Part shown: positions 44,112 to 48,705 of the stretch, piece by piece
Numbering within the stretch: position 1 is the first letter of the stretch
Layout of the letters: each line of letters begins with the position of its first letter
NCBI GenBank assembly: GCA_035303785.1
Contig: DATGRI010000036.1
Span: forward strand, 1 to 48,705
DNA from: Sphingobacteriaceae bacterium
GTDB taxonomy: Bacteria; Bacillota; Sulfobacillia; Thermaerobacterales; RSA17
DNA: 48,705 nucleotides
Reading direction: 5' to 3'
The notes under the pieces: model-generated
Told to the model about the DNA's origin: nothing
Database searches by the model: none
The model's input: only the letters and a program-made list of their open reading frames with translations
Program-made: the position numbers and the translations under genes

Positions 44112-45491
44112 ATGACTTCAGGCAAGGGGGTTCTTACCGTCATCGGCGGCGGCCTGGCCGGATCGGAAGCCGCCTGGCAGGCGGCCCGGCTGGGCGTTAC
44201 CGTCAGGCTGTATGAAATGCGTCCCCACCGGCAGACCCCCGCCCACCACACCCAGCAGCTGGCGGAACTGGTTTGCACCAACTCCCTGCGGGGCACGGGG
44301 CTGGCCAGCGCCCCCGGCCTGCTGAAAATGGAGATGGAGATGCTGGGCTCCATCACCATGGCCGCTGCCGCCGCCAACCGGGTGCCGGCGGGGTCGGCCC
44401 TGGCCGTGGACCGGGAAGGTTTCGCCCAATTCGTCACCGACGCCTTGGCCCGCCACCCCCTCATCACCATAGTGCGGGAGGAAGTGACGGCCATCCCCGA
44501 GCCGGGGGACGGGCCCGTCATCATCGCCACGGGGCCTCTGACCAGCGACCCTCTGGCCGACGCCATCGCCCGGTTCACCGGCCGGGACCATCTGGCCTTC
44601 TACGATGCGGCGGCGCCCATCGTCACCTACGAAAGCCTGAACCATTCGGTCATTTTCCGGGCCTCCCGCTACGACAAAGGGGAAGCCGCCTATTTGAACT
44701 GCCCCATGAACGAAGAGGAGTACAACCGCTTCTGGGAAGCCCTGGTCCAGGCGGAGCGGGTGGAACGGCACCCCTTCGAGGAGGACCTGGTCTTCGAAGG
44801 CTGCCTGCCCGTGGAGGAAATGGCCCGCCGGGGCCGGGACACCCTGCGCTACGGCCCTCTGAAGCCTGTGGGCCTGCGGGATCCCCGCACGGGCCGCATG
44901 CCCTACGCCGTGGTCCAGCTGCGGCAAGATAACGCCGCCGGCAGCCTATATAATATGGTAGGTTTTCAAACCAGCCTGAAATGGGGTGAGCAGCAGCGGG
45001 TGTTCCGCCTCATTCCCGGCCTGGAGGAAGCGGAGTTCGTCCGCCTGGGGGTCATGCACCGCAACACCTTCATCTGCTCCCCGGCGGTGCTCCAGCCCAC
45101 CCTCCAGACCCGGCAGCGGCCCGACCTGCTGTTCGCCGGCCAGATCACCGGGGTGGAGGGCTACATCGAATCGGCCTCGGGGGGAATTGTGGCAGGCATC
45201 AACGGCGCCCGGCTCCTCCGGGGCGAGCCGCCCCTCACCTTCCCCCGGGACACGGCTATGGGCGCCCTTTGCCATTACATCACCGCCGCCGACCCGGACC
45301 ACTTCCAGCCCATGAACATCACCTTCGGCCTGCTGCCGCCTCCCGGCGACCAGGTGCGGGGCAAGCGCCGCCGCAAGGAGGCCCAGGCCCGCCGGGCCCT
45401 GGCTTCCCTGCGGGACTTCATGGGCCGGCACGGGCTGCCCGGGGCCCAGGCCGAGGGAGCCCAAGTCGAGGTGCCTGTGGATGTCCCGTGA
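44112..45491 (+). CDS. trmFO: tRNA U54 methyltransferase TrmFO
   Basis: A 459-residue folate/FAD-dependent enzyme that makes m5U54 in tRNA. The FAD site is [19 protein letters not shown], followed by [15 protein letters not shown] with the catalytic Cys region, [15 protein letters not shown] and [16 protein letters not shown] 44112 has GGGAGGGAG upstream; the frame is open inside topA but has no signal there. Its 3' end overlaps xerC by 11 bases. The topA-trmFO-xerC order matches Bacillus. Confidence 0.96.
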
Positions 45492-46437
45492 GAAGGCCCC
45501 GGGCCTGTACAGCCAGTTCATGGACTACATGGCGGTGGAGCGGGGGGCTTCCCCCTTGACCTTGGATGCCTACGGCGCCGACCTCCAGGACTTCTTCGCC
45601 TGCCTGGACCTGCCGCCGGAGCCGCCGGCCGCCGCCCTCCGGGAAATCACCCATCACCATATCCGCCGCTATTTGGCTCAACTCCACTCCCGGGGATACC
45701 AACGGCGCACCACCGCCCGGAAATTGTCGGCCCTCCGGTCCTTTTTCCGCTTCCTGGTCAAGCGGGGCCACCTGCAGTACAACCCCATGGTCCACGTGAG
45801 CACGCCCAAGCAGCCCAGCAAATTGCCCGGCGCCTTGGAGCCGGCGGCGGTGGAACTCCTCCTGGCCCAGCCCGATGCCACCGATCCCATCGGCCTGCGG
45901 GACCGGGCCATCCTGGAGACTTTCTACAGCAGCGGCCTGCGGCTGTCGGAATTGGTGGGGCTGGACGTGGGCCACATCATGGCTCCCCAGTCGGGGGAGG
46001 ACACGGGCCTGCTGCGGGTGCTGGGCAAGGGCAGCAAGGAGCGCATCGTGCCCATCGGCCGCAAGGCCCTGCGGGCTTTGACGGAATACCAGCGGGCGGC
46101 CCGCCCCCATCTTCTGCGCCTGGGTAAGAACCTGCCGGCCCGGGTGACCGCCGATGCCCAGCAGGCCCTCTTTCTCAGCCGCCGCGGGCGGCGCATGACC
46201 CAGCGGGCGGTGGCCTACCGCATCGCCCAATACGCCGCCGCCGCCCATGTGGGCCCCGGCACCTCGCCCCACACCCTGCGCCACACCTTCGCCACCCACC
46301 TGCTGCAGGGCGGGGCCAACCTGCGGGCGGTCCAGGAAATGCTGGGCCATGCTTCTTTATCATCCACGCAGGTTTATACTCATATATCGATGGAACATCT
46401 CCAGGCAGTCTACAAATCCGCTCATCCCCGTTCTTAG
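45481..46437 (+). CDS. xerC: Tyrosine recombinase XerC (CodV-like)
   Basis: A 318-residue recombinase that resolves chromosome dimers. An N-terminal SAM-like core-binding domain (about 8-105) precedes the catalytic domain, with Arg154 (SGLRLSEL), Lys183 (LGKGSKER), His264 and Arg267 ([12 protein letters not shown]), His290 ([16 protein letters not shown]) and nucleophile Tyr299. A position between trmFO and hslV is as in B. subtilis codV. The length is close to normal. No dif site was identified in the window. Confidence 0.95.
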
Positions 46438-46446
46438 GAGGACATC

Positions 46447-47001
46447 ATGGCCTTACCAGCCTCGGGATCCTTGCACGGCACCACCATCGTGGGCGTCCAC
46501 CGGGACGGCCGGGTGGCCCTGGCCGGCGACGGGCAGGTGACTTTGGGCGACCGGACTGTCATGAAACATAAAGCCCGCAAGGTCCGGCGTATTTATCAGG
46601 GGCAAGTGCTGGCCGGCTTCGCCGGCGGGGGCGCCGACGGCCTCACCCTGCTGGAACGCTTTGAAGCCCGCCTGGAGCAGCACGCCGGGCAGCTATCCCG
46701 GGCCGCCGTGGAACTGGCCAGGGAGTGGCGCTCCGACCGGGTGCTGCGGCGGCTGGAAGCCTTGCTGCTGGTGGCCGACCGCCACCAGCTGCTGGTCATC
46801 ACCGGCAACGGCGAGGTGCTGGAGCCCGACGACGGCATCGCCGCCATCGGCTCCGGCGGGGCCTTCGCCATGGCCGCCGCCCGGGCCCTGGTGCGCCACA
46901 CCGACTTGGACGCCGTGGCGGTGGCCAGGGAGGCTTTGCGCATTGCCGCCGAACTGTGTGTATATACGAATCAGGAAATCGTCCTGGAGGAATTGGCTTG
47001 A
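46447..47001 (+). CDS. hslV: ATP-dependent protease subunit HslV (ClpQ)
   Basis: A 184-residue proteasome-like peptidase subunit that forms a ring complex with HslU. The motif [20 protein letters not shown] places the catalytic Thr after an 11-residue N-terminal extension, as in Bacillus ClpQ; this extension would need removal for a free N-terminal Thr. Later segments [38 protein letters not shown] and [14 protein letters not shown] are typical. The ATG follows AGGAGG. The catalytic residue (Thr12 or Thr13) is inferred. Confidence 0.95.
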
Positions 47002-47034
47002 TCTCGCCCCATGGGCGCAAAGGGAGCGTACGCC

Positions 47035-48447
<1,413 letters not shown>

Positions 48448-48627
48448 TCCCGTCCGGCCCGCCCGCCCCATAGGTCCAAGGTCCGGGGACCCCACGGGGG
48501 GTAAACAACAAATTTTTTAATTCGAATAGGAAATTAGAAGGATTTTTTCGACACCGGTCGAATACTGAAGGCACATTGAACCCTGGTCGGTATTTCCAGG
48601 GTTGCCATAACAACAACAAAAGCCCTT
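48448..48627 (+). other. hslU downstream region with two hairpins
   Basis: ACCCC-ACGG-GGGGT (near 48487-48500) could form a weak hairpin, with a run of six T about eleven bases later, a poor terminator for hslU. TTCGAC-ACCG-GTCGAA (48547-48562) is a perfect 6-bp hairpin. AACCCTGG (48579-48586) pairs with CCAGGGTT (48596-48603), a perfect 8-bp stem. The region is AT-rich (48505-48550) and probably contains the promoter of the riboswitch-controlled transcript. Confidence 0.5.
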
Positions 48628-48705
48628 TCCGATAAAGGCAAACCCGTCGAAAGGCGGGGGCGCAAAGCCACGGGTCTAAAGTCTTTCAAGACCATGACAG
48701 CCGGG
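48628..48705 (+). ncRNA. Cyclic di-GMP-I (GEMM-I) riboswitch, truncated by window end
   Basis: The aptamer consensus is visible in order: AAAGGCAAACC, a stem CCCGTC-GAAA-GGCGGG closed by a GAAA tetraloop, the invariant GCGCAAAGCCACGGGTCTAA, a small variable hairpin (GTCTTTCAAGAC) and CATGACAGCCGGG. Only the last P1 strand, expected as TTGCC, lies outside the window. The purine aligned with Vc2 G20 is G, which fits c-di-GMP rather than cGAMP specificity; this alignment is from memory. It lies on the plus strand downstream of hslU. The regulated gene is off the edge. Confidence 0.9.

Follow-up and report, generated by a model that had tools for sequence, protein, structure and literature searches.

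We found that the 3' end of the 48,705-nucleotide stretch analysed here (the window) carries a genuine c-di-GMP-I (GEMM-I) riboswitch aptamer, and that this aptamer stands in the leader of a flagellar operon whose first gene is flgB. The leader is probably a transcriptional OFF switch, in which the 5' strand of the aptamer itself would serve as the antiterminator.

The aptamer was identified with the Rfam model RF01051, the sole family to reach its cut-off when the whole window was searched with cmscan. The match occupies positions 48627-48705 of the forward strand, where its 3' end is cut by the contig end, and covers model positions 1-79 of 87 with 79.4 bits (E 4.4e-14), compared with a gathering score of 35 bits. 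The original prediction, made from the letters of the window, had recognized GEMM-I elements up to the window end, and its coordinates were off by only one base. On contig C7, which continues the sequence, the aptamer is complete, and the Infernal search of this extended sequence matched all 87 of the 87 model positions with 95.4 bits (E 1.1e-18), so that the covariance score is high, rather than very low, with or without the missing end. The closing helix P1 is formed by AAAGCCCUUU (48619-48628, forward strand) and AAGGAGCUUU, which was looked for and found just past the window edge, immediately 3' of the aptamer on C7; it has one mismatch and is present in the terminator-state fold. The GNRA loop of the aptamer is GAAA. 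In the RF01051 alignment, the equivalents of Vc2 G20 and A47 are G48637 and A48664, and that of C92 is a C just beyond the window edge (L005:9939, minus strand of C7); these three are ligand-contact positions named in PMC11218506. The key residues are therefore of the c-di-GMP type, with G at the G20 equivalent and not A20 as in cGAMP-type aptamers, and binding of c-di-GMP is predicted. Two other flgB-leader aptamers of the class, L051:502-592 and L068:494-577, have A at this position (AAAAGC and CCAAGC), which has been linked to the choice between c-di-GMP and cGAMP, and may sense another ligand. Just upstream of the aptamer, positions 48579-48603 form a perfect inverted repeat, AACCCTGG-N9-CCAGGGTT, which could be an operator or an RNA hairpin.

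The window spans contig C36 of its genome from end to end, so its edge is an assembly break. Its terminal 141 nt (48565-48705, forward strand) are identical to the end of C7 (10083-9943, minus strand) as an assembly-graph overlap; C7 is 10083 bases long and stops exactly where the identity ends, and the stretch is common to no other contig of the genome. An end-to-end overlap of this kind would be expected at an unresolved junction if a de Bruijn assembler had used a k near 141. The putative join of C36 to C7 rests on this overlap and on the same gene order in relatives, and is backed by the nearest relative (G001; record PKRI01000012, isolate ZC4RG18), which has hslV-hslU-aptamer-flgB on a single contig. 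The two GEMM-I matches in the genome are consequently not two riboswitches; they are one riboswitch, the only c-di-GMP-I riboswitch in this genome, seen at two overlapping contig ends. A search of the genome for a c-di-GMP-II riboswitch gave no match, although the controls of that search gave no signal either. No overlap with other contigs was found at the left edge of the window or at the far end of C7, so that the rest of the flagellar operon is unplaced, and the phage records gave no match.

Upstream of the riboswitch, on the forward strand, lie a xerC/codV-type tyrosine recombinase (45481-46437; PF00589 E 4e-38, PF02899 E 1.4e-20), hslV (clpQ; 46447-47001; NF003964, 276.3 bits) and hslU (clpY; 47011-48447; TIGR00390, 652.9 bits). 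The riboswitch thus sits directly after hslVU, as had been proposed, with hslU ending at 48447. On C7, a terminator and then a ribosome-binding region separate the aptamer from flgB, which starts at L005:9837 (minus strand; TIGR01396, 102 bits, cut-off 59); after flgB come flgC, fliE, fliF, fliG, fliH, fliI, fliJ, flgD and a FlgE-like gene that runs off the contig. The motility operon that had been placed beyond the window edge is therefore present. The gene order in Bacillus subtilis is codV-clpQ-clpY-codY-fla/che. The order here is the same up to flgB, except that codY is missing and that clpY/hslU and flgB are separated by a c-di-GMP-I riboswitch. Of the analogy with Bacillus drawn in the original prediction, the flagellar genes hold and codY does not: searches for a CodY domain found none in the genome of the window or in the order's other family, and in G001 gave no more than a weak match below threshold, elsewhere in the genome. 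The left edge of the window does carry a chemotaxis block (MCP, CheW, CheA, CheY, CheB and CheX); its suggested connection with the riboswitch transcript found no support. The genome encodes three GGDEF and two EAL domains; the GGDEF motif is intact in two of the three, and the DDFG motif is found in both EAL proteins. No sigma-70-like promoter consensus was found in the leader.

Among 101 genomes drawn from the family, order and class to which the window belongs, 92 contain RF01051. We took 60 regions upstream of flgB from the class and searched them for RNA families; 51 of them contained the aptamer no more than a few hundred bases from flgB. At 36 of these 51 loci hslU was in view upstream, including the nearest relative and G003, which was taken as Thermaerobacter marianensis; the genus of G002-G005 shares the arrangement. 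The codY gene lies between hslU and flgB at 22 of the 36 loci and is absent from this position at 14. Spacing is similar in the nearest relative, with about 150 nt from hslU to the aptamer compared with about 180 nt here, and 97 nt from the aptamer to the flgB match in both. The placement had been regarded as the novelty, but it is not peculiar to this genome: the arrangement is conserved within the class. Outside the class, the aptamer was found with a strong score at only three of 80 named hslU loci (G001 being one of the three), although codY and flgB occurred together with hslU at 12 of the same 80; this rules out the riboswitch as part of the hslU-codY-flgB arrangement in Bacillota generally. 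It seems that the riboswitch entered an ancient codV-clpQY-codY-fla neighbourhood no later than the ancestor of this class, and that some branches lost codY afterwards. Copy number and position also vary: c-di-GMP-I matches number up to 14 in G040 and 11 in G018, compared with one in the genome of the window; tandem aptamers precede flgB at L061:581-873 (RF03167 and RF01051) and L094:408-659 (two RF01051); and at L085 and L093 (family f24) the aptamer and a strong hairpin are found not directly before flgB but about 1.8-2.5 kb upstream of it.

A search for a terminator between the aptamer and flgB found a strong intrinsic one, AACGGTGTGTGCCTTTATCGGGCATACACCGTT followed by a T run (L005:9898-9866, minus strand of C7), with 14 pairs and a five-base loop. 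It lies 36-69 nt downstream of the aptamer, and its U tract ends about 20-30 nt before flgB. The aptamer 5' strand, UCCGAUAAAGGCA (48628-48640, forward strand), has a 13-nt complementarity to UGCCUUUAUCGGG, which comprises the terminator loop and the adjoining bases of the 3' arm (L005:9889-9877, minus strand); within it, CCGAUAAA (48629-48636, forward strand) is part of the predicted helix with the terminator loop. In G001 the equivalent helix, between GUUUCCCGAUAAAGG and CCUUUAUCGGGAAAC, is 15 pairs long, and both of its strands have changed outside a conserved core. When the two folds were enforced, they differed by about 1 kcal/mol here (terminator -68.9, antiterminator -67.7 kcal/mol) and were nearly equal in G001 (-91.0 and -91.1 kcal/mol, respectively). 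In growing ligand-free transcripts, the computed probability of the antiterminator helix was about 1 from synthesis of the loop until the terminator 3' arm was nearly finished, and four relatives showed the same elongation behaviour. The full-length, ligand-free transcript at equilibrium slightly favoured the terminator (0.85 compared with 0.15), and antitermination would therefore need kinetic trapping.

From these features we infer ligand binding, the direction of control and its timing as follows. At high c-di-GMP, the aptamer would form and hold its 5' strand in P1/P2; with this strand locked by the ligand, the downstream terminator would fold and transcription would stop before flgB. At low c-di-GMP, UCCGAUAAAGGCA would pair with UGCCUUUAUCGGG as soon as the latter is made, and the resulting helix would dismantle the aptamer and block termination, so that the flagellar genes are transcribed. 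Ligand binding uses the switching strand, since G48637 and the GC at 48638-48639 belong to the binding site. Because ligand and antiterminator need the same strand, they are predicted to be mutually exclusive, and the ligand should favour the terminator; this predicted exclusivity is conserved at the level of sequence, and it would operate through the 5' and not the 3' strand. The OFF direction is further supported by the precedent of Cd1, the c-di-GMP-I riboswitch before flgB of Clostridioides difficile, which is an OFF switch (PMC6366702).

The proposed wiring was examined across the class. No terminator, or only a weak one, was found in 10 of the 56 aptamer leaders scanned. In 46 class leaders with a clear terminator, we determined the best helix that the aptamer 5' strand could form with the terminator loop and 3' arm, and obtained a null by permuting partners among genomes (50,000 permutations). 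The complementarity had a z of 6.5, with none of the 50,000 permutations as high, and persisted when each family was represented by a single leader (z 4.5, p 0.0002), whereas a reversed-sequence control for composition gave z values of 0.8-1.5. An earlier unrestricted complementarity scan (p 0.0013) is superseded by this test, which is restricted to the terminator loop. The signal had a z of 6.0 without the family of the window and of 4.6 without its order, and became weaker when both its order and family f7 were left out (z 2.4, p 0.014); several lineages therefore contribute, and not all relatives use 5'-strand wiring.

An OFF switch could alternatively be wired as published for Cd1 (Cdi-1-3), whose antiterminator joins strands T, A and H (PMC9262584), with the 3' strand of the aptamer pairing with the terminator 5' arm. 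That wiring belongs to an experimentally studied relative located, like this one, before flgB. However, the leader described here offers for it only a 5-bp CCGTT:AACGG match, ranking 22 of 45, and across the class the corresponding 3'-strand pairing had a z of 1.15 (p 0.13), or 1.49 (p 0.07) with one leader per family, which makes it unlikely that the leader follows the Cd1 wiring.

The leader also contains a weak, terminator-like first hairpin, GCCGAAGAAGGAGCUUUCGGU with a U run (L005:9940-9920, minus strand of C7), of 7 pairs, 3 of them G-C. It overlaps the 3' strand of P1, competes with this helix and would act in the opposite way to an OFF switch. If the ligand prevented this hairpin, with which P1 is mutually exclusive, it would raise flagellar expression, and a weak and a strong terminator in series do follow another c-di-GMP-I aptamer, Bc1 (PMC11218506). 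Nevertheless, so poor a hairpin would still be followed by the strong second terminator, and an ON switch would be at odds with how c-di-GMP usually acts on flagella and with the Cd1 precedent; we consider it very improbable. An aptamer that binds its ligand but exerts no regulation, or regulation at a different level, for example by Rho or a promoter-bound repressor, is likewise very improbable: Bc1 of Bacillus thuringiensis does bind c-di-GMP with no response in vivo (PMC11218506), and the inverted repeat at 48579-48603 lies upstream, but aptamer, position and terminator are conserved over many families, which points to selection for function.

The preferred reading, an OFF switch with a 5'-strand antiterminator, shares with Cd1 the aptamer class, flgB as first gene, an intrinsic terminator between the two and the predicted direction of control. 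It differs in lying after hslVU, where codY was not found, and in the predicted pairing of the 5' strand with the terminator loop and 3' arm, whereas in Cd1 the published antiterminator draws on the opposite side of the aptamer. It resembles Bc1 in aptamer class, in the series of a weak and a strong terminator and in a motility-related target, which for Bc1 is mcp (PMC11218506); the two hairpins of the leader may thus be two terminators in series, as in Bc1. In contrast, Bc1 controls a chemoreceptor gene, shows no c-di-GMP response in vivo and has a longer platform (PMC11218506). Riboswitch control of flgB is therefore already known, but the conserved placement and the 5'-strand wiring appear to be undescribed. 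A literature search, with subscription journals mostly outside its reach, found no paper on riboswitch placement in hslVU-codY-flgB or on Thermaerobacter riboswitches. The predicted 5'-strand antiterminator is possibly a new variant of expression platform.

In conclusion, we lean towards the view that, in a class of deep-branching Bacillota, a riboswitch placed anciently between hslVU(-codY) and flgB controls the flagellar operon, and that in several lineages its platform is not of the Cd1 kind, the 5' strand being the antiterminator to the terminator loop and 3' arm, so that the choice between ligand binding and read-through falls to a single strand. Gating of a flagellar operon by a second messenger through RNA would then extend beyond C. 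difficile, in a syntenic position across a class of mostly uncultured Bacillota. The predicted antiterminator would also offer a simple, mutable design for studying riboswitch decisions during transcription. Thermaerobacter marianensis is a cultured member with the hslU-riboswitch-flgB arrangement, in which the prediction is testable. This species has been described as non-motile with flagellar genes present (PMC3035304), and silencing by c-di-GMP could be one reason for its lack of motility.
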